Shown piece after piece: positions 3,623 to 20,071 of a stretch of 20,897 nucleotides of DNA. A program made the position numbers and the translations under genes. Every line of letters starts with the position of its first letter. Within the stretch, counting starts at the first letter, position 1. Origin of the DNA: a virus; the IMG/VR virus record IMGVR_UViG_3300005470_000022, positions 1 to 20,897 of that record; one strand, written 5' to 3'. Under the pieces are notes generated by a model that did no database searches, was not told where the DNA came from, and was given only the letters and a program-made list of their open reading frames with translations.

Positions 3623-4092
3623 TTATCATCTCCTAGCGCTGCTTGAACCTTTTTCTCGTACACCGGATGAACGATATTGCGGCTTTGCTTGTCTGTCGGG
3701 AATATCTTCCGTTTCGGGATATTCTGTTTTTTCGATCCATGCTCATGCACTGAAGAATATATTCGCTTTGATTTAACCTTGCCGTATTTTTCAGTTGCCG
3801 TCAGTTCCCAGTCGCGCATCAGTGATCCGGTGTCACGCAATATTTGTGCGCCAGAGTTACTGCTTTTCTTACCCTTTCTTCGCCGCTCTAGGGTAGATTC
3901 TTTTAACGGCTTCCACTTTAGTGACCTGTCGTCATGCAACCCCCCGTCAGCTCTAAAATTACGTGATATCCATTGTCTATATGCCGTAGCTGCCGCAAGG
4001 TTTGTCGCCCTCATCCGTTGCATGCTGTCAACAGCACCTTTCATTACGCTGACAAATTTATCCATGCCTTTTAATTTCAGATCTACTTTCAC
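3619..4092 (-). CDS. Mu gpG-like virion morphogenesis protein
   Basis: About 157 residues, basic. Motifs typical of the phage virion morphogenesis family (Mu gpG, Phage_tail_S) are visible: KWKPLKESTLERRRKGKK, ILRDTGSLMRDWEL, a VHEHG segment and PKRKIFP. These proteins act at head-tail joining or tail completion. I place the start at GTG 4092 because it overlaps the stop of the upstream connector gene as GTGA, with GAGGA just upstream. This gives the family-like opening VKVDLKLKGMDKF. An earlier in-frame GTG at 4107 would add five residues. The stop overlaps the next gene by four bases, so translation is probably coupled. Confidence 0.8.
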   Translation of the reverse strand: MKVDLKLKGMDKFVSVMKGAVDSMQRMRATNLAAATAYRQWISRNFRADGGLHDDRSLKWKPLKESTLERRRKGKKSSNSGAQILRDTGSLMRDWELTATEKYGKVKSKRIYSSVHEHGSKKQNIPKRKIFPTDKQSRNIVHPVYEKKVQAALGDDK

Positions 4093-4547
4093 GTGTCCTC
4101 GCTCCACAGATCGTCTAAAAGATCAGGGTCAACACGTTGGTAGATATCGTCACGCATATCGAATGTAGGCTTATAGTCACCGGTGCTACTGTAGGCCGTG
4201 AACAAGTTGTTATCTGATCCCTGAAGTTCTGCCCCATCATCCAGTACCATCGATGCGTTGTTCTTGTTGATTGCGTCAATTCGCGAATCAAGATCTTCCT
4301 TCAGCTCTTTACTATCTTCTATGTTGCGTGTTCTCAGCAGAATGCCAAGATATGCGAAATGAATGGATAGATCCCTGGCAGTGGCATTGTTGCTGCTGAA
4401 TGGCGTTGTATAGCTTTTTGACAGCCGTTCATTAACTCGCATCCATCCATATGGCAACCAGACGTTAGCGATCTCCGACGAATTGATACCAATGGCTTCG
4501 ACATTGTAGTATGCCGCGAACTGATCTACTGTGGCGTATGTCGTCAT
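4089..4547 (-). CDS. Probable head-tail connector / adaptor (gp36-like)
   Basis: A 152-residue acidic, mainly helical protein beginning MTTYATVDQFAAYYNVEAIG. The opening TVDQFAAYY, the helix around WMRVNERLSKSY and the position directly before a gpG-like gene match phage gp36/DUF1320-like or head-completion adaptor proteins. Those bind under the portal and attach the tail. The C-terminus (DPDLLDDLWSEDT) is strongly acidic. It overlaps the radical SAM gene upstream by four bases (ATGA), so a typical structural gene is translationally coupled to an enzyme gene that does not belong to the usual structural set. The assignment is by size, order and weak pattern only. Confidence 0.55.
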   Translation of the reverse strand: MTTYATVDQFAAYYNVEAIGINSSEIANVWLPYGWMRVNERLSKSYTTPFSSNNATARDLSIHFAYLGILLRTRNIEDSKELKEDLDSRIDAINKNNASMVLDDGAELQGSDNNLFTAYSSTGDYKPTFDMRDDIYQRVDPDLLDDLWSEDT

Positions 4548-5227
4548 TTGAATTTTTCCGGATCGTCAACGCAATTCGCGCAAAGAGCAAACCGCCTGGT
4601 TTGCAGTTCGATTATATCTTCAATTGGGTGAAAAACAGATCCGTGAATGCACTCCCCGTCTGCGTCAACACAACATGCTGATATTCTTCCATCTACCAAA
4701 ACCATCATCCATCCGAGCCCTATCCACCCGCATGTCGCCCCGACCTTATCGACTGGCCAATTTACTTTCCCGGCCCAATCATTCGCAGATATAACCGGGT
4801 TACACGCGATATAATCGAGTATACCCCGGCTTTGTAGCATTCTCGGTACTTTGGCAAGTGCCTCCTGATCCGGGACATTCAGATGAATTGATACATGCAC
4901 CCGAATATTCAGCTCTGCCAAAACATCTGCAATGTCTTCCGTCATGAGCATTGCATTTGTCGATACCTGAATCTTTGTTTTTGGCAAGTACTTCCGCGCC
5001 AACCGGCAGAACAGCGTAAATTGCGGGTGAAGCAACGATTCGCCCAGGCCATGAAGCCATATTTCCTTTTGATTCAGTCTTGACGCTATATCCAATGTTC
5101 GGCTGAACGTCTGCAAATTCATAAATGATTTTTCGCGCAACTGAAGATGATTCGCGCAATAAACACAATTCAGATTGCACCGGTTCGTTAGTTCTATTTG
5201 GTGTATCCGCGATAAAATTGTTCCCAT
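4544..5227 (-). CDS. Radical SAM enzyme with SPASM-like cysteine-rich C-terminus
   Basis: A 227-residue protein with the radical SAM cluster motif CX3CX2C at residues 17, 21 and 24 (TNRCNLNCVYCANH). A GLGESLLHP stretch follows at about 60-68, corresponding to the family GGEPLLHP motif that contacts S-adenosylmethionine. Further cysteines at 166, 185, 186, 193, 216 and 219 (CGWIG, ISACCVD, GEC, CANC) look like a short SPASM/twitch domain binding an auxiliary iron-sulfur cluster. Enzymes of this architecture modify peptides, proteins or small molecules by radical chemistry. At 227 residues it is short for the family, so the core may be a partial barrel. It lies between the holin-like gene and the connector gene, overlapping the latter by four bases. 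The substrate is unknown; a virion protein, a host factor or a glycan precursor are possible. Confidence 0.88.
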   Translation of the reverse strand: MGTILSRIHQIELTNRCNLNCVYCANHLQLREKSFMNLQTFSRTLDIASRLNQKEIWLHGLGESLLHPQFTLFCRLARKYLPKTKIQVSTNAMLMTEDIADVLAELNIRVHVSIHLNVPDQEALAKVPRMLQSRGILDYIACNPVISANDWAGKVNWPVDKVGATCGWIGLGWMMVLVDGRISACCVDADGECIHGSVFHPIEDIIELQTRRFALCANCVDDPEKFK

Positions 5228-6278: not shown

Positions 6279-9278
6279 TCAAATATATTGCAAATTTGTG
6301 GCGATTGAATCTGTTTTTTCTTTCGCCAATTTTGCTATAAGCGCGTTCATATCTTCAGCGTTAACCGTTCGCCCTTCAATTACCCGCGGTGCTGCGCCAT
6401 TGATATTGTCGCCAGATCCGGCCACCTCAAGGTCTACCGCGAATCGAAAATGCAGAGACTTTCCTTGCATAACAAGGTCTGCACATTCAGAAACATACGG
6501 CAGTGAATCAATAACAAGGCGTGCATTGCCGTCGTTTAGCAGACCACGCCACATTTCAATCGCTTCATTCGCTCGATCAGCCATATCGCCAGTAATATTG
6601 CCGCCGTTCTGTTCCATTTCAAATCGGTTCTTGTGGGCAAGGTCTCTGATCCATAAAAATTTAGATAGCATCCGATCAGGATTTTCTTTTCTGTCACGCA
6701 CCATCAACGGCCAGTTGCGGACGAACCTATCTCGGCGTGTCTGCTCTGTTTCGTATCCGGCGTGAACAATACATGTTTCTTGAGCCGGGATAAGAAAAGT
6801 ACGGCCAGCACCTTTGTTAATTTCTGTTTCCGGATGCTCGTGCACCAACCCAAAAAACTTTATCGACTTATGATTTCGAAACAGTCGACATGGTAGGTCC
6901 GTCTTCATGACCGACGGTGGTTCGGCGGTATAGTGGTGCTGGTGGATAGCGTATGAATCGAATTCATTTTCACGCAAGTACTTAAAAACCCGGTGCTGGT
7001 GCTGCCAAATTTCGTCGGCATCAATCCACAAGATCCAGTCTTTTGTAGCTCGCTCTATTGTCAAATTTCTTGCTGGACCAAAACCCATTTCCGTTGGGCT
7101 TTGTGGCAGATAGAAAATATTTGCCGAAGGTATTATGCGTTTTATAGTCCGTTCTGTTGCGCAGAGTGAATCTCCCTGGTAATCAATCCCAATGACAAAT
7201 TCATCGGCTAAATACTTAACCGATCGCAGCGTCTTTGCCAGCATGTCTCCTTCTGCATCGACAATCATGCAACACGACAGCGTTTGCTTTGGTGCCTGGA
7301 CTGCAAACTTGCGATCATAATTGATATCGCGAATATCGTCATATTTGTCTACCGTCCAGGACCAGACCATATTCCCAAGAATATCTTGCCGGCGGTTGTC
7401 ATTATCACGGACATACAGCACTTGCAAATCCTTTTTGTGGCCGACAATGTCGAGTATATCTGCCTCCTCAAAATGGTGGACGTGTTCTATCGGAGTTGTC
7501 CGATCCTGGACATTCGCATCGTGTGGACCATGCGGTGTCGTCAGAATGATCCGCCCGCCAGGCTTTACAATCTTTTCGACTGAAGTGAGAAATTTATGAT
7601 AGTCGTTGATGTGCTCAAGGACTTCGGTGCAAATCACCAGGTCAAAATCAGGTGTGGTTACGTCTTCAGGGGTTATTACAGGATAAAACCTTACATTCCC
7701 GACATTATGTTGCGCTGTGAACCGACGCGCTTCATGGATTTGTTTGTCGGATAGATCGACCCCGGTGAATTGCAGTGACTTAAATTCATTTGCCCATGCG
7801 TGAGTATTCTGCCCAACACAGCAACCATAGTCAAGAATACGGCTGCCTTCAGGCATTTTTGATAGGTAATCGGTGATAGATTTTAGTCTGGGAATTCTAT
7901 TGAGAACATGTTGAAAATCTCCCAGCCTGTGGTCGTTGTTTATTTTTTGGTGGTATTCCGCCTGAGCGTTGTAGAATTCCGAGGTTTCCTTTCCGTCTGT
8001 TTTCGCATAAGACGGATACGTCTCAGATGTTCCCGGTAAATTGTCTGCTCTAAGTCCGTACTTTTCGGCCAGCTTGCCCGCCGCATGAATGTCTGAATAG
8101 TACATAAAATGCCGGTAAAGGCGTTCTTTATCGCTTGTCCTGGCCTTAAAATCATCATTGATAAGCTGTTCAAGCCCATCGACAGAAGCAGTGATCGAAT
8201 ACTCATGGCAGGCCCCCAATGCTTTTTTGTGAAGCTGCAACCACTTGTCTGGATTTTTCGAAATATAAGAAACAGCCTTAACCGTGTTTGCGATCACCGA
8301 CCTGGAAGATCCATCATGGTCAATCCAGTATACTCCTCCATTTTGCAATGTCTCAGGTAGTGCGCCAACCCTGGTTGCTACAATTGGCGTCCCTGCCGCC
8401 TGCTGCTCCATGACGGTAATGCATGACGTTTCTTCAAACTCTGTGGGATATACATGTAGCCAGCAGTTAGCTTGGATCACTGCCAGTTCTTGTTTTGATA
8501 AGAATCCAATATTCTCAACGTTTGGCATTTCGCTACATCGTCGGTACAGGTAGCCATACTGCCCAGCCATTGCCGGGTGACTGTGGTTATAGCTGCACAC
8601 CAGCAATTTTATTTCTGGATCGACTTTCGCCAACTGATCCATTACCCCATTTTCACCGACCAAATTTACCAGCCCCCTTTCCGGTCGGTGAGAATACAGA
8701 ATTGTTTTTGACCGCTGCTTCCGTTCTGGATTATGTGCCGTTGGATACAGGTCCAGCCGGATGCCGTTCCTAAATACTGCTGTGTTCGATACGCCGTAAA
8801 CACTTTTTACCTGTTCCGCATGCCAGTCAGACACTGCAAGAATACGGTCAACGTTCCACTGCTGTGCCATGATGCCGCCGATATAGCGCTTGAGCGCCAG
8901 GTCATGAGTCCACCAGTAGTTCAGCTTGCTGTTGTACTGCTGTGTGAATATACCCGGCGCGCGCTGCGCTATCAGCACGTCGTGCGGTATCGATCTAGCA
9001 TGCGCCTGGAAATTTGACCCAAATGGCGTCTGTTCGTTTTGGTCACCGACAGGTAAATACACCACACCGTTTACTGTTTTCGGTGTGTTATCAGGTATCC
9101 GTGAAAAAACGAATGCTGAGTGACCTCTTTTTGCCATCTCTTCGGCTGCCATTAGCCCCATCGTTTCAGAACCACCAAGGCTTTCGGCAGGCTTTGTGAT
9201 ATTTCCTTTTTCGTCGCGCACTTCTGTTAGTGTCAGCCCATCGAATGGCATTCCATTGACATACATAAATATTTTCAT
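6279..9278 (-). CDS. Trifunctional fusion: GT4 glycosyltransferase - SAM methyltransferase - GT2 glycosyltransferase
   Basis: A 999-residue protein with three enzyme domains. Residues 1-375 are a GT-B/GT4-type glycosyltransferase: GGSETMGLMAAEEMA at 35-49, ILYSHRPERGL at 193-203, and FEETSCITVMEQQAAGTPIV at 281-300, which carries the C-terminal sugar-nucleotide motif. Residues 435-625 are a class I methyltransferase with ILDYGCCVGQ at 481-490, FTGVDLS at 504-510, FDLVICTEVLEHI at 545-557 and VKPGGRIILTTP at 571-582. Residues 664-880 are a GT-A/GT2 domain with MGFGPARNLT at 731-740 and the metal-binding WIDADE at 751-756. The C-terminal 120 residues are unassigned. I chose ATG 9278; in-frame TTG 9305 and GTG 9287 lie upstream and overlap the preceding gene. 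It probably builds or caps a methylated glycan in the cytoplasm. Acceptor unknown. Confidence 0.9.
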   Translation of the reverse strand: MKIFMYVNGMPFDGLTLTEVRDEKGNITKPAESLGGSETMGLMAAEEMAKRGHSAFVFSRIPDNTPKTVNGVVYLPVGDQNEQTPFGSNFQAHARSIPHDVLIAQRAPGIFTQQYNSKLNYWWTHDLALKRYIGGIMAQQWNVDRILAVSDWHAEQVKSVYGVSNTAVFRNGIRLDLYPTAHNPERKQRSKTILYSHRPERGLVNLVGENGVMDQLAKVDPEIKLLVCSYNHSHPAMAGQYGYLYRRCSEMPNVENIGFLSKQELAVIQANCWLHVYPTEFEETSCITVMEQQAAGTPIVATRVGALPETLQNGGVYWIDHDGSSRSVIANTVKAVSYISKNPDKWLQLHKKALGACHEYSITASVDGLEQLINDDFKARTSDKERLYRHFMYYSDIHAAGKLAEKYGLRADNLPGTSETYPSYAKTDGKETSEFYNAQAEYHQKINNDHRLGDFQHVLNRIPRLKSITDYLSKMPEGSRILDYGCCVGQNTHAWANEFKSLQFTGVDLSDKQIHEARRFTAQHNVGNVRFYPVITPEDVTTPDFDLVICTEVLEHINDYHKFLTSVEKIVKPGGRIILTTPHGPHDANVQDRTTPIEHVHHFEEADILDIVGHKKDLQVLYVRDNDNRRQDILGNMVWSWTVDKYDDIRDINYDRKFAVQAPKQTLSCCMIVDAEGDMLAKTLRSVKYLADEFVIGIDYQGDSLCATERTIKRIIPSANIFYLPQSPTEMGFGPARNLTIERATKDWILWIDADEIWQHQHRVFKYLRENEFDSYAIHQHHYTAEPPSVMKTDLPCRLFRNHKSIKFFGLVHEHPETEINKGAGRTFLIPAQETCIVHAGYETEQTRRDRFVRNWPLMVRDRKENPDRMLSKFLWIRDLAHKNRFEMEQNGGNITGDMADRANEAIEMWRGLLNDGNARLVIDSLPYVSECADLVMQGKSLHFRFAVDLEVAGSGDNINGAAPRVIEGRTVNAEDMNALIAKLAKEKTDSIATNLQYI

Positions 9279-9283
9279 AGTTT

Positions 9284-10243
9284 TCACACAAAAAGTGGTT
9301 GCCAATAATATGACACAATCTCATCCCATTTAACAGCGGTGTAAGCCGGTGTATGCTGGATTGTGTCTGTTTCGTTCAGAAGAAATTTATCAAACGGGAT
9401 ATAGTCGCCGACAGTATCGGCCAGCGCCCCGCAAAGATTTACAACCGGTTTGCATCCGCAGTATTGTGCCTTCAACGCATTCAGGCAAAACAGCTCAGCA
9501 TCTGGCTTGTTCAGCGGCAAACACCAGTACTCTGCGCGCCAATATTCTTCCTCGATCTGCTCTTTCGGCAGTTCGCCTAACGCAATTATCTGGTCCTGCC
9601 GCATCAGGTGTTTTATTGTGTTTTTCAGCACTGTATCCTGGCACATTGCGTCAAAGTTACGGAAACCATAAGCAATACGAAGTTCTATTGCCGGGTAATG
9701 CAACCTCAACACCTGCCAGTTTTGCAGTAACTGCAAAAGTCCACGATCTGGGCTGCTGCAATACAGCATAGTGTTCGGATCTTTGTCGGATTTATTTCTA
9801 TCAAGTGACAATGTGTCTACACCTAAAGGTATAGCACATGACTTATCAACTGGAACAAATAAATTTCGCGACTCGTGGTATCGGGAAATATTGACAAAGT
9901 AATTTATCTTATCCATCGGCCATTTTTTTTCTACCTCAGCAGACCAATGGATATTGCGATAGCAGGATAACCCCTGTAACCAAGGCAGTTTATCCTTGAA
10001 CGTTATAAAAATCGTATTTGCCGGATCTTCTACCGAACACTTTTCACGCGGTTGATACCTTACCCCATGTCGCTCTGTGTTGTTGCCATCTTTTTGACTG
10101 TGATAAACATCAACCGAGTACCCGGCGCGAACCAGCGCTTCAGATAGCAGAACAACCGCCTCTTCCGACCCGCCCAAAAACCGATCGATATCGTCTGGGC
10201 ACCAGCCACCAGCAACTTCATTCGTGTAAATTATGATTTTCAC
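9284..10243 (-). CDS. GT4-type glycosyltransferase (GT-B fold)
   Basis: A 319-residue protein starting at GTG 10243 (MKIIIYTNEVAGGWCPDD), overlapping the upstream small gene as GTGA with AAGG in front. FLGGSEEAVVLLSEALVRAG is the N-terminal glycine-loop region of GT4-like enzymes. LYCSSPDRGLLQLLQNW marks the start of the C-terminal Rossmann domain, and the motif region near AEYWCLPLNKPDAELFCLNA carries the donor-binding Glu. It resembles the first domain of the following fusion protein in several places (GGSE, YCS/YSHxPxRGL), suggesting a tandem duplication. No membrane segment or signal peptide is seen, so it acts in the cytoplasm. Donor and acceptor are unknown. Glycosylation of a virion protein or synthesis of a glycan intermediate with the fusion enzyme is the simplest idea. 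Confidence 0.85.
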   Translation of the reverse strand: MKIIIYTNEVAGGWCPDDIDRFLGGSEEAVVLLSEALVRAGYSVDVYHSQKDGNNTERHGVRYQPREKCSVEDPANTIFITFKDKLPWLQGLSCYRNIHWSAEVEKKWPMDKINYFVNISRYHESRNLFVPVDKSCAIPLGVDTLSLDRNKSDKDPNTMLYCSSPDRGLLQLLQNWQVLRLHYPAIELRIAYGFRNFDAMCQDTVLKNTIKHLMRQDQIIALGELPKEQIEEEYWRAEYWCLPLNKPDAELFCLNALKAQYCGCKPVVNLCGALADTVGDYIPFDKFLLNETDTIQHTPAYTAVKWDEIVSYYWQPLFV

Positions 10244-10538: not shown

Positions 10539-11492
10539 CTAATCAACGTCCTTTACCAACACCCCGAGGGCTTTGGACATGACTTTTTCATCCTGGTAAT
10601 ATCCCAGTTCGATTTCGTCGGACTTGATTTTTGGGTCAAACGGATGACGCTCGACCGACATGTTCGCCAGTCCAGGCCGATTCCAGCGGAAAGTGTAGCC
10701 GAAAGACGGCATTTCCATTGACGGGCGCTGCGGGCAATAATACAAAAGGACCTTATCGCCCCACATCTGCGTGAGCGACATCGCGATCCCTTCCTCGGAG
10801 GTATTACGATATGCCCCGCCGACGTAAAGGCCCTCAAGTTCAAGCAATTGTGCCGCTTGTTCTTTCGTCGCATTCTGGCCACCGCCGCTGACACCGGCCT
10901 TGTTAACCTTGTCGATTACCTGAGCGTTTCGCGAAAACAGCCGCCAAGCAATATCGCCAAAGACAGCACGGTTCGGGCGATACCCGGTTTGATCAGCCTG
11001 TTCGTCGATCGCGGTCCAGATATCTTCCAGCGGGCGACTATTGGCGTAATCGGTCCAGGCACTGCCAACCGTGAATTGGGTCGATACGTTGGTTGCAGTA
11101 GTCACATGCACCGAAACCCGCATTTCCCAATCCAAATAAAGCTGGTCCTGAAGGAAAAACAACCTCCCCTCTTCCACGTCGCGAACAAAAGCGGGATCAG
11201 CGTTGGCCCGATCTTCGATCGTCGTCGGGACTTTCAACGCGTAGTTTTTGCAAAAATACGATTCTGACGAAACCTGAAAACTGACCTTGTTGGCCTCAGT
11301 TCCAGGCGCTCGCAGCGTATTATTGACGCGGAACAAGTCCGCTTGGTTGTACGTTTTGATCATGTCCGATTGGTTTTGAACATTGACAATCGGGAAGATC
11401 ATATCGGCAACGAATCCCATCGGGCGGTAATTCATCGCCAGGTTGGTCAGGTGCTTGTCAACATGCACCGTGCGACCCTGTAAGTATCCCAT
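10539..11492 (-). CDS. Major capsid protein
   Basis: A 317-residue protein beginning MGYLQGRTVHVDKHLTNLAM. The sequence has the pattern of a HK97-fold capsid protein of the group found with Mu-like proteases: an N-terminal stretch with FVADMIFPIVNVQNQSD, an E-loop-like region (APGTEANKVSFQVSSE) and a helical spine (DPAFVRDVEEGRLFFLQDQL). It then shows P-domain strands and a C-terminal region with GYTFRWNRPGLANMSVERH. The ATG at 11492 follows GGGAGGTAACC, the strongest Shine-Dalgarno of the region, as expected for the most abundant virion protein. It sits after protease/scaffold and decoration genes, the standard order. No large N-terminal delta domain is visible, consistent with a separate scaffold protein. 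Confidence 0.88.
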   Translation of the reverse strand: MGYLQGRTVHVDKHLTNLAMNYRPMGFVADMIFPIVNVQNQSDMIKTYNQADLFRVNNTLRAPGTEANKVSFQVSSESYFCKNYALKVPTTIEDRANADPAFVRDVEEGRLFFLQDQLYLDWEMRVSVHVTTATNVSTQFTVGSAWTDYANSRPLEDIWTAIDEQADQTGYRPNRAVFGDIAWRLFSRNAQVIDKVNKAGVSGGGQNATKEQAAQLLELEGLYVGGAYRNTSEEGIAMSLTQMWGDKVLLYYCPQRPSMEMPSFGYTFRWNRPGLANMSVERHPFDPKIKSDEIELGYYQDEKVMSKALGVLVKDVD

Positions 11493-11502
11493 GGTTACCT
11501 CC

Positions 11503-12252
11503 CTAGATTCCTACATCTAGCGACGAAGTCGCATAGTGTGGCGTTGCGAAATTAACGGCAGCCCAGAACGCGGCACCGGATGCGGCGGCAGCAGAAGCAC
11601 GACCGATAATCACATCACCTGACCCGGCATCGATCAGATATCCACCAGTCGTTATTTTCAGCGAACTATCAGCGGTTACACCCGCCCCAGCCTTGGCGGA
11701 TACACGCCCAACAGCCTTTGCCGTCACTGTACCACCTGATGTGGCGCCATCGATAATAACACCACCGGCGACTGAGCTTGAGGCAGCGACGTTGCCAGTG
11801 CTAAAGTCAATCGCCAAACCAGCGGCTGAAGACAGGTTGGCCGCTGCCGAAACCTCGAAAACATCCGCGATATTATCGTACTGTTTCGGCGCGACGAAAT
11901 TGAACATGCCATAACCAACAGCCCCGGACGCTACGGATGCCAGCGATCTGCCGACAACGTATTTCCCCTGAGTAGCGGTGATAAAATACCCGGACGTGGT
12001 GACGGTTACTTGCGCACCGGCGGCTACAGTGGCTCCAGCGGTGAACTTCATTATACCGTCCCAGCCCTGGGTCACATGCTCACCGGATTTTCCAACATAC
12101 TGCAAAATACCGGTTGCGTCAGAACCGTTATTTGCCAGAATACCAGTTGCCTGATTTACAGCTTTGTAAATTGCCCCGGTCCCGGCGTTAGTGGTATCGA
12201 TATCCTCGGCAGCCTTAAAAGACCACGTTCGAAAATCATTCTGAATAGCCAT
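11503..12252 (-). CDS. Head decoration protein (DUF2190-like) with internal duplication
   Basis: A 249-residue Ala/Gly/Ser/Thr-rich, beta-strand-rich protein between the protease/scaffold and major capsid genes, where DUF2190-type decoration or stabilising proteins are found. Two similar segments are visible: residues about 71-122 (QVTVTTSGYFITATQGKYVV then ending NFVAP) and about 187-238 (SLKITTGGYLIDAGSGDVII then ending NFATP). The protein therefore looks like two copies of a single decoration domain in tandem. The opening FKAAEDIDTTNAGTGAIYKA fits the family. The start ATG shares a base with the protease stop (TAATG) and follows GGGAGGGCC. It probably sits on the outer capsid surface; trimer formation is known for related proteins but not testable here. 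Confidence 0.78.
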   Translation of the reverse strand: MAIQNDFRTWSFKAAEDIDTTNAGTGAIYKAVNQATGILANNGSDATGILQYVGKSGEHVTQGWDGIMKFTAGATVAAGAQVTVTTSGYFITATQGKYVVGRSLASVASGAVGYGMFNFVAPKQYDNIADVFEVSAAANLSSAAGLAIDFSTGNVAASSSVAGGVIIDGATSGGTVTAKAVGRVSAKAGAGVTADSSLKITTGGYLIDAGSGDVIIGRASAAAASGAAFWAAVNFATPHYATSSLDVGI

Positions 12253-14050: not shown

Positions 14051-16453
14051 CTATATTGTGCCGAATCCCTTATCCGGTGATACAATCCCGGCCTTGTCTG
14101 ATGGCTTCCAATCGTCAATAATCAGTATTGGTTCAAGCATTGAACGACATTGAAAATGGTTTGGCGGGGTTATTTGCGCCCATATAGGGTCGTTCTTTGC
14201 GTATTTTCGCCCGCTCAAAGATTCGCAGATATCCGAGACACGATTATCCAATACAGCGACATATTCGAAACCTTCGACGAAATCACCAAGCCCCGGGTCC
14301 ATGTATGCTGATAATTGCGCCTGATTGAAAATAGAAGCTGTAGTTGTCCTCGCTATAGTTTCCAGTCTGGCCCTTTTCGGCTTGCCTGTCAATTCTGACA
14401 CGTTGTCGGTGCCAATAAACGGTTCCATAACTTGGTCGAATTCGCGAATATATTCCTGTACCGACCAATCTTCTTGGATTCCTTGCAGCAGAATATTGGT
14501 CGCCGCCTTCAGCATGTCGTCGGTGATGCCTTTCGTATCCTGGAACGCACGGCCGCGAATGTAATCATTTGCTGCCTTCAGTGATAGACCTTCGGCGAAA
14601 TTAGCCACCGTCCAGGTATCTACGGGCATACCATCGATCCAGACAAATTGTAGCCCTGATGCCTTTTCTTGTGATACTGCCGCCTTTATTTTTACTGCGT
14701 CGCGAATGTCCTTCGGCTGCCCAGCGACTGCGTCAACAATTACGTTTTGCGCTTCTTTCCGCCCCAGATCATACCCGGATTTAAGTTGCTTTTGGATCGT
14801 CTTGTTCAGGTTATCTTTCGTTGCCGACCTGATAACCGCCTGCAGGCGCTCAACCGCGTCAGTAGTATCTAGCCCGCTTTTTACGTCCTTGACCTGCGTT
14901 TCTAGCCCTGCCTTTAGATCTGCATAAACGTCGTCAACCGCGTCAGACAGTGCCAGAACGTAATCTTCTTCGACAGATGTCCACTTGTCGTCGAGTGCTG
15001 CAAAATCAATCCTGCTACTGAAAGGCACCGACATCGCAAGCTGGCCTGTCGCTGGCGGTATACCGCTGCACTGATGTTGGGCAAGCGCCGCGCCTGCCGG
15101 TGCTTCAATGTCGTCGTCGCTTGGTTCTTGTTCTTCCGGATCTTCGATTTCACTGCCTGGTGCCGGTTCTTCCGGTTCTTCCGGCTGGTCCTGCGGTTCT
15201 GGTGTTTCTGGTTCTTCGTCTTCGTCTTCTTCCCGATCGCCGTACATCAGCAATTCGCGGGTCCGAAGCTCATCCTCAAACGTATTTTCAACAACGCCTG
15301 ACTTAACGGCGTCCATCCATAGTTTGGCAATCGCCTGTTTCTGCGCCGTTGTGTAGCCGTCCAGGCAGAATCGCGGGCACTGGTCTGTACCGTAATTCCA
15401 TCGGGCCAGCTGCGCGAATACCTGTTCATTTAATGTGTCAGCCAGGCGTTCGCCTTCTTCCTGAACCGTCATCATGAATACGTCTAGCTGCGTATCGCCT
15501 AGCGCCCGGCTACCGAACCGGCTATCGTCGGTGAAGCCCATCAGATTCGGAATCAGCAGGCCTTTCGTTATCTGGCGGTCGCTGAATGCGATAGCGCTGT
15601 CGAATGCCTGCGTGTCTGCCGCCTGTTTAACATCGATCTGATATCCCATCGGGGCACGAATTGCCGACATGGTTTGCACGTTTTTGATCGCGTTCTCGAA
15701 GGCCGCCAGTTCTGCCGGGTGCATTGCTTGCGCGTTTTCGTTCGGCGTTGCCACCAGAAAACCACCGGCATGACGCTCAAGATAGATATTTCGCAGCTTT
15801 AGAATTACGTCCTTTTCCCAATATGCACGGTAAATCGACCGGAGATCGGACTCACCCCAAATCGGATCGATATCAGGGTGGTTTATGTACACCACAAATT
15901 TGTTTGGATCTAGGCGTTTTTCTTCGGTGTGCTGTTGCCGTTGAATAATCGTTTCCAGATTCCCGTATTCGTCAGCGATAAATTCAAACGTATCAAACGG
16001 TTTCGGTTTGATCGCCTTTACGATCCAACGCGGTTGACCTTCGAAATCGACAACGGAATAGACCTTTTCACAGACAGAAAAGCCGTGCATTTTTGCACGC
16101 AATATCGACCTCATCGCCTGAATAAACGTTCCGCGAAACCAATCAGACAGCATGCGTTCAAAAAAATCACGCATTTCGACTTGGATATCATCGTCATTCG
16201 GCAGCACAAACCGCCATCCCCGGCTGATTACGATATTGACGCGCAGATCGTAAGCGCTCTTGATCTGCGGGTCACGCATCATACGGGCGTATATGTCCGC
16301 ACCTTTCCTGGCCACAAGATCATCCGGGTTGTACCGGCTGATATCGCCCATCAGGCCCAACAGGCCAGATCGCGCGATCCATGCCTGTTCCTGCAGGATT
16401 GATCTTGTCGGTTCTGTCGGCGACTTGAAAAATGATTTTATCCGATCGATCAT
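14051..16453 (-). CDS. Portal protein fused to Mu gpF-like minor head protein
   Basis: An 800-residue protein with two parts. Residues 1-400 are a portal protein of the Mu gp29/DUF935 type: MRDPQIKSAYDLRVNIVISR at 59-78, the region near VVYINHPDIDPIWGESDLRS at 187-206, and FGSRALGDTQLDVFM at 313-327. Residues about 407-452 are an acidic, Pro-rich linker (EEPETPEPQDQPEEPEEP). Residues 480-800 are helical, then carry the gpF motif: DNRVSDICESLSGRKY at 736-751 and PPNHFQCRSM at 763-772, with C743, H766 and C769 resembling a metal site. The portal forms the dodecameric DNA channel; gpF-like proteins are minor head proteins made from a separate gene in most phages. ATG 16453 has TGAGGCAGA in front. 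A long single-frame fusion is seen; later proteolytic separation is possible but unproven. Confidence 0.88.
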   Translation of the reverse strand: MIDRIKSFFKSPTEPTRSILQEQAWIARSGLLGLMGDISRYNPDDLVARKGADIYARMMRDPQIKSAYDLRVNIVISRGWRFVLPNDDDIQVEMRDFFERMLSDWFRGTFIQAMRSILRAKMHGFSVCEKVYSVVDFEGQPRWIVKAIKPKPFDTFEFIADEYGNLETIIQRQQHTEEKRLDPNKFVVYINHPDIDPIWGESDLRSIYRAYWEKDVILKLRNIYLERHAGGFLVATPNENAQAMHPAELAAFENAIKNVQTMSAIRAPMGYQIDVKQAADTQAFDSAIAFSDRQITKGLLIPNLMGFTDDSRFGSRALGDTQLDVFMMTVQEEGERLADTLNEQVFAQLARWNYGTDQCPRFCLDGYTTAQKQAIAKLWMDAVKSGVVENTFEDELRTRELLMYGDREEDEDEEPETPEPQDQPEEPEEPAPGSEIEDPEEQEPSDDDIEAPAGAALAQHQCSGIPPATGQLAMSVPFSSRIDFAALDDKWTSVEEDYVLALSDAVDDVYADLKAGLETQVKDVKSGLDTTDAVERLQAVIRSATKDNLNKTIQKQLKSGYDLGRKEAQNVIVDAVAGQPKDIRDAVKIKAAVSQEKASGLQFVWIDGMPVDTWTVANFAEGLSLKAANDYIRGRAFQDTKGITDDMLKAATNILLQGIQEDWSVQEYIREFDQVMEPFIGTDNVSELTGKPKRARLETIARTTTASIFNQAQLSAYMDPGLGDFVEGFEYVAVLDNRVSDICESLSGRKYAKNDPIWAQITPPNHFQCRSMLEPILIIDDWKPSDKAGIVSPDKGFGTI

Positions 16454-18007: not shown

Positions 18008-18485
18008 GAATATCGTCTCTGCTTAGTTTAGAGAAGTCAAACTGAACCGGTATTGGACCGGCTTCGGTGCTTATTGCGTGTTCCTGTTTTTCGCGCCACT
18101 GCTTTGGTTTTCGGTTCACGAGCCAGAACTTGAGCGCCACTGCATCAGGTGGGTAGTGCCGTTTCACCACCTTTCGTTCTTTGCGTGTTGGTTTGCCATC
18201 CTTGTCAATTTGCACGGTCGTGTGTTCTTCCTCATAGTCGTATCCAAGCGCTTTTTTCAGTAGTGCATTTTCGACTTCGATGTCCACCGGAGCCTTGCCA
18301 CGGGCCAAACCTTCCGCGAATTCCGGGTACTTTGCCACGTAAGTGTAAAACGCAGTCTTTTTTATTCCTAGCTTTTCAGCTATTTGTGCATCGGACAGAC
18401 CTTCCCTGGCCCATCCTTCTGCTAGTGTTGGGAATGTGTCTTTGTATTTTGTTTTTTGGCCTGCGTTACTTTTCTTGCGCTGCAA
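17919..18485 (-). CDS. terS: Terminase small subunit
   Basis: A 188-residue protein with an N-terminal helix-turn-helix at about residues 30-60 (GLSDAQIAEKLGIKKTAFYT, then YVAKYPEF). A central oligomerisation region follows (VENALLKKALGYDYEE, VQIDKDGKPTRKERKVVKRH), then PPDAVALKFWLVNRKPKQW, a stretch shared with many TerS proteins. It recognises the packaging site and loads TerL. The start is TTG at 18485. An in-frame TAA lies eight codons upstream and no ATG or GTG lies between, so TTG is the only start that keeps the N-terminus. It overlaps the glycosyltransferase gene by 20 bases. The pac or cos site it binds is not identifiable here. Confidence 0.88.
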   Translation of the reverse strand: MQRKKSNAGQKTKYKDTFPTLAEGWAREGLSDAQIAEKLGIKKTAFYTYVAKYPEFAEGLARGKAPVDIEVENALLKKALGYDYEEEHTTVQIDKDGKPTRKERKVVKRHYPPDAVALKFWLVNRKPKQWREKQEHAISTEAGPIPVQFDFSKLSRDDIREIRQIVIDHRSRENTGRAGSDLSGSSKE

Positions 18486-19326
18486 TTTTTTTGAACCTGT
18501 CTGAAATTATCTTTGGCACCGTTGCCTTCCAATTTATTCTGTGATGGATTCTTTTGTTTTTTGTTACCATTATCGAGCACTTGACACTGGACGGACACAG
18601 CATGACGGTGTAAAACGTTTTCAGGTATGTCCCGTGGTCTAAATAAACGTCGGTCATGCCACCTTGGTTTTGTTGCGTACTCTTTTGCTGCAATGCTACT
18701 ATTGGAATGGTCAAAAATATTTTTCCTTGCCCACCAAGCAGGAAATATGTATTTACATCTTCATTTATTGTGCCAATGAATTTAAATCGCCTTTCAGTGC
18801 TTAGGAAAAAACTATTCATTGCCTTGCGGCTTCCTTTTAATCCAAACCCGCTATATTTTCCGCCTATGTGGTCACCAGTTTGTGACATTGCGGTGGATAA
18901 TATATCATGCGATGCGTAAAAGTTAAATATCAGATCCCAAATAGCATCTAGATTTCTTATTGGCCTAGCTTCGTAACACTTTGTTTTGTTGTACTTGTAA
19001 ACAAATGACGTATAATCGTCATCTAGCTCGATGAATTGTTTATAGCCCAGGCTTTCGGCAATATCAAACCCAGCGTTTCTGGCAAAGACTATCGTTTTTG
19101 TTTTACCGAAGTTATCCGCTTTATCTGTTTCATCAATATATCTTTGTTTATTGAATACGACCACTTCCTTTTTGTAAAGGCGTTTGTACTCTTCCGCTGT
19201 TTTGTCATAATCGTCGATGACTATGAAGATCGGCCCGGTGTAACCATGTCGTCTCAGCGTTCTGTAAGTGTAGATGCGATCTGGCCGACCGTGACTTAGG
19301 ATCAAGACGCAATATTTATTCACCAT
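18466..19326 (-). CDS. TAGT/GREB1-like glycosyltransferase, probable DNA-base glycosyltransferase
   Basis: A 286-residue GT-A-like enzyme. Visible motifs are YCVLILSHGRPDRIYTYRTL at 5-24, IVIDDYDKT at 35-43, FARNAGFDIAESLG at 81-94, FIELDDDYTSF at 98-108 with the metal-binding acidic cluster, STERRFKFIGTINEDVNTY at 165-183 and GGMTDVYLD at 212-220. This set is that of the TET/JBP-associated glycosyltransferase family (also annotated GREB1-like). Family members occur in kinetoplastids and phages and are thought to add sugars to hydroxymethylated bases in DNA. I start at ATG 19326, inside the ParB-like stop region; an upstream in-frame TTG at 19347 is less likely. It is coupled to the ParB-like gene, a partner reported for this family. 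No TET/JBP oxygenase lies in the window, so the source of the hydroxyl is unknown. Confidence 0.8.
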   Translation of the reverse strand: MVNKYCVLILSHGRPDRIYTYRTLRRHGYTGPIFIVIDDYDKTAEEYKRLYKKEVVVFNKQRYIDETDKADNFGKTKTIVFARNAGFDIAESLGYKQFIELDDDYTSFVYKYNKTKCYEARPIRNLDAIWDLIFNFYASHDILSTAMSQTGDHIGGKYSGFGLKGSRKAMNSFFLSTERRFKFIGTINEDVNTYFLLGGQGKIFLTIPIVALQQKSTQQNQGGMTDVYLDHGTYLKTFYTVMLCPSSVKCSIMVTKNKRIHHRINWKATVPKIISDRFKKIAAQEK

Positions 19327-20071
19327 AATCAATTGCTGACTGGTCAAGTATTTTATCGATCATCATTGTGTATCCTTTTGCAATTGCGTCTTCCAGATCG
19401 ATTATGACGAGAGCTGAGTCTTCCATTAACGCTTGCATTTCTGGTGTTGCCCTTGAGTAGTATTGCGCTATATTTTCGTAATTGAAGACGGTATGCCGTG
19501 CGGCTGCGTGTATCAAAAACTGTTTTTCTTGTTCTGTTATCGTGTCGTTCTTTTTTATCGCCAGTATCAAGGTATCGCGTTTTGATGTGCTGCATAGTTC
19601 TTCGATAGCGATTTCTTTTTCATCTGGCTCGTATATTGGCGCTTCAATTTTGTTGGTGTAGATCGATTCTTTTTCTATTGAAATAAGTTCTGCGAGGTTT
19701 AATTCGTTGAATGCAGGATGGTCTTTCAATTCGGATATGATGTCATCCAGCCGTTCATCGAATTCGCCGGATATGTGCGGGTTGTTGAGCGTGATGTTCA
19801 GCGCTTTTTCGTCCTGGTCCGACAGATCGACGATGGTGCATTCGATTTCTGATTCGGCTGGCAGGCCAAGTGCTTCGAGGCGTTTGTGCCCGCCGACGAT
19901 TGTGTTCTTGCCGTTGCGGATGTTGACGATTACGTCTTGGAGGTAGCCGTACCGGGACAGTGATTGTTCAAGCCCAGCCTTGGCTTTTGCGGATATTGTT
20001 CGCGGGTTGTATTCGGCAGGTGTGATGTCAGCAACGCGAAACACCTGCCGTTCGGCTTTTGTTGGCTTCAT
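19316..20071 (-). CDS. ParB-like nuclease-domain protein
   Basis: A 251-residue protein with a ParB/Srx N-terminal domain at about residues 8-110. YNPRTI at 21-26, YGYLQDVIVN at 41-50 and TIVGGHKRLEAL at 57-68 contain the GxxR-type catalytic/CTP-binding motif, and EKALNITLNNP follows at 88-98. The C-terminal half is helical and acidic (RATPEMQALMEDSALVII) and lacks the helix-turn-helix of chromosome-partition ParB. It is therefore not a partition protein but the phage type often found with DNA modification genes, acting as a nuclease, ATPase or guide for the modifying enzyme. It is coupled to the TAGT-like glycosyltransferase by an 11-base overlap. The ATG at 20071 lacks a Shine-Dalgarno and a promoter-like sequence lies directly upstream. 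Confidence 0.85.
   Translation of the reverse strand: MKPTKAERQVFRVADITPAEYNPRTISAKAKAGLEQSLSRYGYLQDVIVNIRNGKNTIVGGHKRLEALGLPAESEIECTIVDLSDQDEKALNITLNNPHISGEFDERLDDIISELKDHPAFNELNLAELISIEKESIYTNKIEAPIYEPDEKEIAIEELCSTSKRDTLILAIKKNDTITEQEKQFLIHAAARHTVFNYENIAQYYSRATPEMQALMEDSALVIIDLEDAIAKGYTMMIDKILDQSAIDYGE

Follow-up and report, generated by a model that had tools for sequence, protein, structure and literature searches.

What does a radical SAM (rSAM) enzyme, not a usual head gene, do in the head operon of a phage? The question arises from the window, a stretch of 20,897 nucleotides from IMG/VR record IMGVR_UViG_3300005470_000022, in which the original prediction placed a radical SAM/SPASM-like enzyme at 4544-5227, coupled to a connector gene and possibly acting on a virion protein, a small peptide or a glycan intermediate. 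The gene is present as an ATG-initiated reading frame on the minus strand, as are all genes assigned in the window; the strand had been left unstated before. Its product carries both the CX3CX2C motif at residues 17-24 and, within HGLGESLLHP at residues 59-68, the GE motif GLGESLLHP that had been described (Table 1). The Pfam family Radical_SAM (PF04055) matches at 58.5 bits (cut-off 29.5), the profile match starting at residue 11 of 227. Given this score and the invariance of seven cluster cysteines (17, 21, 24, 166, 185, 216 and 219) in 84 homologues, the identity of the enzyme is far from chance; a loss of cluster cysteines was never seen. The four-base overlap with the connector gene is also present, and although the adaptor gene itself gave no Pfam or PHROGs match, its identity as a connector is borne out by three of six aligned homologues, which match both Mu gp36 (PF07030) and the 'head-tail adaptor' family phrog_195. 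Around roughly 100 rSAM homologues, gaps of 10 bases or fewer occur upstream in 59 of 102 cases and downstream in 66 of 99, with exact four-base overlaps in 29 and 19 instances respectively. Short gaps and overlaps are thus common among the homologues and the coupling to late genes, as had been proposed, is a trait of the family.

Table 1. Features of the rSAM locus and the surrounding head genes, in window coordinates.
Feature	Position	Strand	Basis
rSAM twitch-domain enzyme, 227 aa	4544..5227	-	Pfam Radical_SAM 1.2e-15; model pLDDT 95; top PDB match BtrN 9e-14
CX3CX2C (C17, C21, C24) for the SAM-binding [4Fe-4S] cluster	5156..5179	-	sequence; invariant in 84 homologues
Signature loop N149-D-W-A-G-K154	4766..4783	-	W151 invariant; aligned with BtrN N151-R152-G153-G154
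Twitch motif, first half: C166-X13-G180-X4-C185	4673..4732	-	alignment of homologues and sequence
Twitch motif, second half: C216-X2-C219	4571..4582	-	alignment of homologues and sequence
ATGA stop/start overlap, rSAM / head-tail adaptor gene	4544..4547	-	sequence
gp36-type head-tail adaptor	4089..4547	-	homologues match PF07030 and phrog_195
1008-aa fusion: GT4-type (~aa 44-329), class I methyltransferase (~472-614), GT2 (~669-890)	6279..9305	-	Pfam
GT2 part of fusion	6282..7325	-	nearest solved relatives GmaR, SunS, ThuS
Second GT4-type glycosyltransferase, 319 aa	9284..10243	-	PF00534 1.1e-7
Major capsid protein; putative acceptor of the glycan	10539..11492	-	similar to proteins annotated as major capsid in cultured phages
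Putative decoration protein; alternative acceptor	11503..12252	-	by position; conserved beside capsid gene; no Pfam match
Portal fused to MuF-like domain	14051..16453	-	PF06074 7.6e-53, PF04233 1.3e-13

The cysteines of the protein lie at positions 17, 21, 24, 74, 142, 166, 185, 186, 193, 216 and 219. The six C-terminal ones had been counted correctly, and four of them (166, 185, 216 and 219) fit the pattern of an auxiliary cluster. The alignment of the 84 family members has 15 invariant columns (C17, C21, Y23, C24, G62, E63, N91, H115, W151, C166, G180, C185, D188, C216 and C219), among which are the residues that mark a twitch domain with one auxiliary cluster, CX9-15GX4C followed by CX2C. 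A full SPASM domain with two auxiliary clusters (CX9-15GX4C - gap - CX2CX5CX3C - gap - C) was considered and rejected: only CX13GX4C and CX2C were found, and no second SPASM motif follows, since the chain stops 8 residues past C219. The radical SAM half of the earlier assignment therefore stands, and its SPASM half gives way to a one-cluster, BtrN-like twitch domain.

The likeness to BtrN was seen at the level of both profile and predicted fold. A search with the single window sequence matched generic rSAM families with coverage of the core only, as do the other solved chains when matched by the family profile; BtrN alone covers both the core and the twitch domain (1.8e-20, residues 6-203). 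The predicted model (pLDDT 95.4, pTM 0.92) has the partial TIM-barrel core fold of radical SAM enzymes, with matches to rSAM structures in the PDB, and the first structure returned by Foldseek is BtrN with SAM and substrate, over the full length (9e-14, TM 0.76, 212 columns), followed by sactisynthase, SpeY and ChlB structures from 3e-7 onward. Both the full-length predicted fold and the four cysteines for an auxiliary cluster are of the BtrN type. BtrN, the 2-deoxy-scyllo-inosamine dehydrogenase of butirosin biosynthesis (PDB 4m7t), oxidises a cyclitol alcohol and has four cysteine ligands to its auxiliary cluster (PMC9012708). The phage enzyme shares the rSAM core, the twitch domain and the four auxiliary cysteines and differs in its low identity (~22-23%), in its setting, a phage head operon with frequent tandem paralogues as opposed to an antibiotic cluster, and in one residue of the signature loop. 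This loop, NWAGQ in most homologues and NDWAGK in the window, lies just ahead of the auxiliary C169 in the BtrN alignment. The residue aligned with BtrN R152, which we take to lie near the substrate and to be the proposed base, is the invariant W151, and because of this replacement the protein is classed among BtrN-like twitch enzymes and not as a BtrN. The tryptophan suggests that either the substrate or the base differs and is counted against the BtrN-like reading; we infer from its invariance the same reaction type as BtrN on another substrate. The twitch rSAM dehydrogenase SpeY (PDB 7x0b, fold match E 4e-7) is more distant and longer, and its context is not common to both.

As a single query, the window rSAM returned nothing in viral or genome contigs and weak matches in only 3 of 50,697 phage records. 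Given these empty scans, the search for relatives started from the capsid protein, which identified 43 viral loci, many of them with rSAM genes, and continued with an rSAM alignment, which identified 90 relatives at 78 distinct loci of IMG/VR and only three in 84,980 prokaryote genomes. Most records are incomplete fragments, and the simple gene calling that was used missed the rSAM of L033 and L103. In the tree, 93 phage rSAM sequences stand apart from four cellular ones (97% SH-aLRT), indicating that the gene recurs in a clade of more than 90 phage sequences and is not stray cargo. Two rSAM genes are present in 33 of 69 phage loci; within a large clade all first copies of the tandem fall into one group and all second copies into its sister group (support 100% and 97%), which therefore reflect one old duplication kept as a pair, and other tandem pairs have separate origins. 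The window rSAM forms its own single-copy branch with that of locus L005 (46% identical), in a placement that is not firm. That the window is no chimera follows from L005, in which the genes stand in the same order (fusion, small gene, M15 peptidase, rSAM, gp36-like).

The arrangement of the window, with rSAM behind the fusion gene, is found in about 10 loci. Most often the genes run portal, rSAM(s), protease, decoration, capsid and GT4-methyltransferase-GT2, with tandem rSAM paralogues often between portal and protease. The window also has recognisable genes for terminase, tail tube and tape measure, and the Mu-type portal with its MuF-like domain is one 800-aa protein, the same long portal being found in relatives. 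A protein of ~180 aa (L068, 9450-9992, and its homologues) often follows the fusion or precedes rSAM and is a possible further acceptor.

The constant companion of rSAM is the glycosyltransferase fusion, which directly follows the capsid gene in all 30 capsid loci whose downstream sequence exceeds 3.5 kb, a set gathered without use of rSAM. Among 50 related records, rSAM was found in 37, of which 33 have the GT2 domain; the four that lack the GT2 domain of the fusion include two incomplete records (G044 and G049) and one (G039) with another GT2 gene beside rSAM. A co-conserved partner, for which the original prediction had proposed to look in related phages, was thus identified. In two records, G042 and G029, rSAM lies outside the head block, with the fusion ~10 and ~26 kb away; in the latter (54 kb; L063, 9794-10690) it sits in a block of replication genes, next to one that resembles DNA polymerase III alpha. 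The parts of the fusion are found permuted in L056 (8149-11460; GT2-TPR, methyltransferase, GT4) and split into two genes in L070 (6612-9870; GT2-TPR and methyltransferase-GT4), and L103 has a methyltransferase-GT4 gene; rSAM is adjacent or near in each. The stand-alone GT4 gene between capsid and fusion is separate only in the closer relatives L003-L006 and L030.

A profile of 47 GT2 domains matched GmaR (1e-28), SunS (6e-24) and ThuS (7e-21), the next match being at 4e-8, and the predicted fold (pLDDT 93.3) matched SunS and ThuS at 3e-16 to 5e-14, followed by TarP as the next enzyme at 2e-8. NCBIfam SunS was matched by 46 of the 47 members far under its equivalog cut-off, and given 52.7 bits against a cut-off of 350 the domain is related to SunS and is not a SunS. 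The nearest solved relatives are therefore the peptide S-glycosyltransferases SunS and ThuS and GmaR, a transferase that adds GlcNAc to flagellin and has the domain layout GT2-TPR (PMC9638930). A likeness to that layout is seen in L056 and L070, where TPR repeats follow GT2; the phage domain differs from all three in being fused to a methyltransferase and a GT4 domain within a head operon. Taken together, the sequence and fold matches make this GT2 most like protein- or peptide-directed enzymes. The proposed link to a glycan through the neighbouring glycosyltransferases is supported. In principle, SunS/GmaR-like GT2 domains might act on other acceptors. Given that this GT2 is of the protein type and is encoded just after the capsid gene, the likeliest acceptor would be the capsid or the decoration protein.

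The best explanation, held with a slight lean in its favour, is that a virion protein, probably the capsid, is glycosylated and that rSAM oxidises a hydroxyl of the sugar in the course of this. We infer here dehydrogenase chemistry, a sugar substrate and the capsid as acceptor. The enzyme would work like BtrN, cleaving SAM with one [4Fe-4S] cluster and abstracting a hydrogen atom from the carbon that carries the sugar hydroxyl, whereupon a second electron would pass to the four-cysteine auxiliary [4Fe-4S] cluster to give a keto-sugar. The GT2 domain would attach a sugar to a protein of the virion, for which the product of the neighbouring major capsid gene is the likeliest candidate, and the GT4 and methyltransferase domains would extend and methylate the attached sugar. 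The rSAM is missing from a sizeable share of the capsid lineage, including the large records G004, G011 and G016 (each >41 kb), and would therefore tailor the glycan and not enable it, being dispensable for the glycan core.

In many relatives the decoration may be taken further by a second, paralogous rSAM, by FkbM or class I methyltransferases, or by a sulfotransferase. Sulfotransferase (PF13469), FkbM (PF05050) and class I methyltransferase genes lie between or beside the rSAM genes at some loci; FkbM and one methyltransferase family occur at 11 loci each, with rSAM present in all, and among loci having portal and protease, extra methyltransferases accompany rSAM in 10 of 38 against 0 of 15, a modest association (p = 0.046). 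A short-chain dehydrogenase directly after the fusion in L043 (14016-14690) could reduce an rSAM-made ketone, thereby inverting the sugar hydroxyl. Against the proposed pathway, none of the genes recognised in the window is for the synthesis of an NDP-sugar. For the phage clade as a whole, it is quite possible, at a little short of an even chance, that paired twitch rSAMs and the fused GT4-methyltransferase-GT2 build keto- or radical-modified capsid sugars.

It is possible that rSAM and the glycosyltransferases instead alter the surface polysaccharide of the host, its O-antigen or capsule, and so block superinfection. This is the strongest rival, and it is considered unlikely. Cellular rSAM relatives with the [N/D]WAGQ motif are only L118, L119 and L120 (an archaeon bin, Cyanobium and a Nitrospirae MAG), and all three lie in polysaccharide-type clusters, near glycosyltransferases, FkbM, ABC polysaccharide exporters or a flippase, a setting that also speaks for the preferred glycan pathway. 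In addition, glycosyltransferases of pelagimyophages, some with rSAM cassettes, are read as modifiers of the host O-chain (PMC7029224), so that both gene kinds are present in a phage; unlike here, these cassettes, with LPS-type glycosyltransferases, lie in the tail-fibre hypervariable region. Three observations weigh against a host target: first, the genes are within and coupled to the head operon, away from any moron and from the early genes; second, the GT2 domain resembles protein or peptide and not polysaccharide glycosyltransferases; third, the fusion tracks the capsid gene at every locus of the set.

A second scenario, which is improbable, has the module glycosylating hypermodified phage DNA, with rSAM tailoring a base-linked sugar. 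Radical SAM enzymes occur in some phage base-hypermodification pathways, and the window encodes a TET-associated (DNA) glycosyltransferase on the minus strand at 18466-19347 (PF20691 4e-25, phrog_842 6e-65), adjoining a ParB-like gene and the small terminase. However, this glycosyltransferase was found in 2 of the 50 related records, against 37 with rSAM, and the GT2 domain is protein-glycosyltransferase-like; TET/JBP was found in 0 of 50 records, a weak zero given that these are fragments and that no control genome was positive. Besides the window's twin, L002, only the record of L043 among the 50 relatives has the TET-associated enzyme, and the window phage may also carry glycosylated DNA.

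No greater probability is given to the reading in which rSAM is a peptide enzyme, either maturing a ribosomal peptide or acting directly on a virion protein by crosslinking, epimerisation or methylation, even though its core also matches SPASM peptide maturases and SunS-like GT2 enzymes act on peptides too. The small-peptide substrate that had been offered as one option found no support: no conserved small ORF lies beside 105 rSAM genes, the largest small-ORF family being confined to four related loci, and neither a leader-recognition domain in the 227 residues (Pfam) nor such a partner among the neighbours scanned was found. Furthermore, the second SPASM cluster motif is absent and the best full-length match is a cyclitol dehydrogenase. 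A phage-borne viperin-like nucleotide enzyme, to which a weak PADLOC pVip match (7e-10) might point, is scarcely credible, given that this match is limited to residues 12-115 of the rSAM core, that viperin fold matches span ~150 residues at 2e-6 or weaker against 9e-14 over the full length for BtrN, and that the window protein has the twitch cluster motif.

The oxidation of a sugar during virion glycosylation is thus the preferred reading, and glycosylation of virions by radical chemistry is not described in the literature found, where a search for rSAM enzymes with phage capsid glycosylation gave nothing on point. For mycobacteriophage Maravista (PMC11256854), phage glycosyltransferases are suggested to modify the capsid, as proposed for the present module, and the abstract names no radical SAM enzyme. 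Such a system is likewise absent from the cultured phage records searched: no near-full fusion was found among cultured phages and the full GT4-methyltransferase-GT2 protein in 0 of 50,697 phage records, neither a glycosyltransferase nor an rSAM is annotated in the head blocks of KPP23 and RDJL Phi 2, two cultured capsid relatives, and the rSAM-glycosyltransferase module was not found in cultured phages of the collection searched.

Phage-encoded glycosylation of virions is only beginning to be recognised. The presence of a BtrN-like rSAM beside enzymes resembling protein glycosyltransferases in the capsid block of an uncultured phage group suggests particles coated with chemically unusual sugars. 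A capsid gene beside its own glycosyltransferase provides a defined target, and the family is a new source of carbohydrate-acting radical enzymes, of which few have been characterised. In summary, the constant pairing of capsid, glycosyltransferase fusion and BtrN-like rSAM points to unusual sugars on the phage particle, which possibly serve its stability, its adsorption or its escape from recognition by the host or in the environment.
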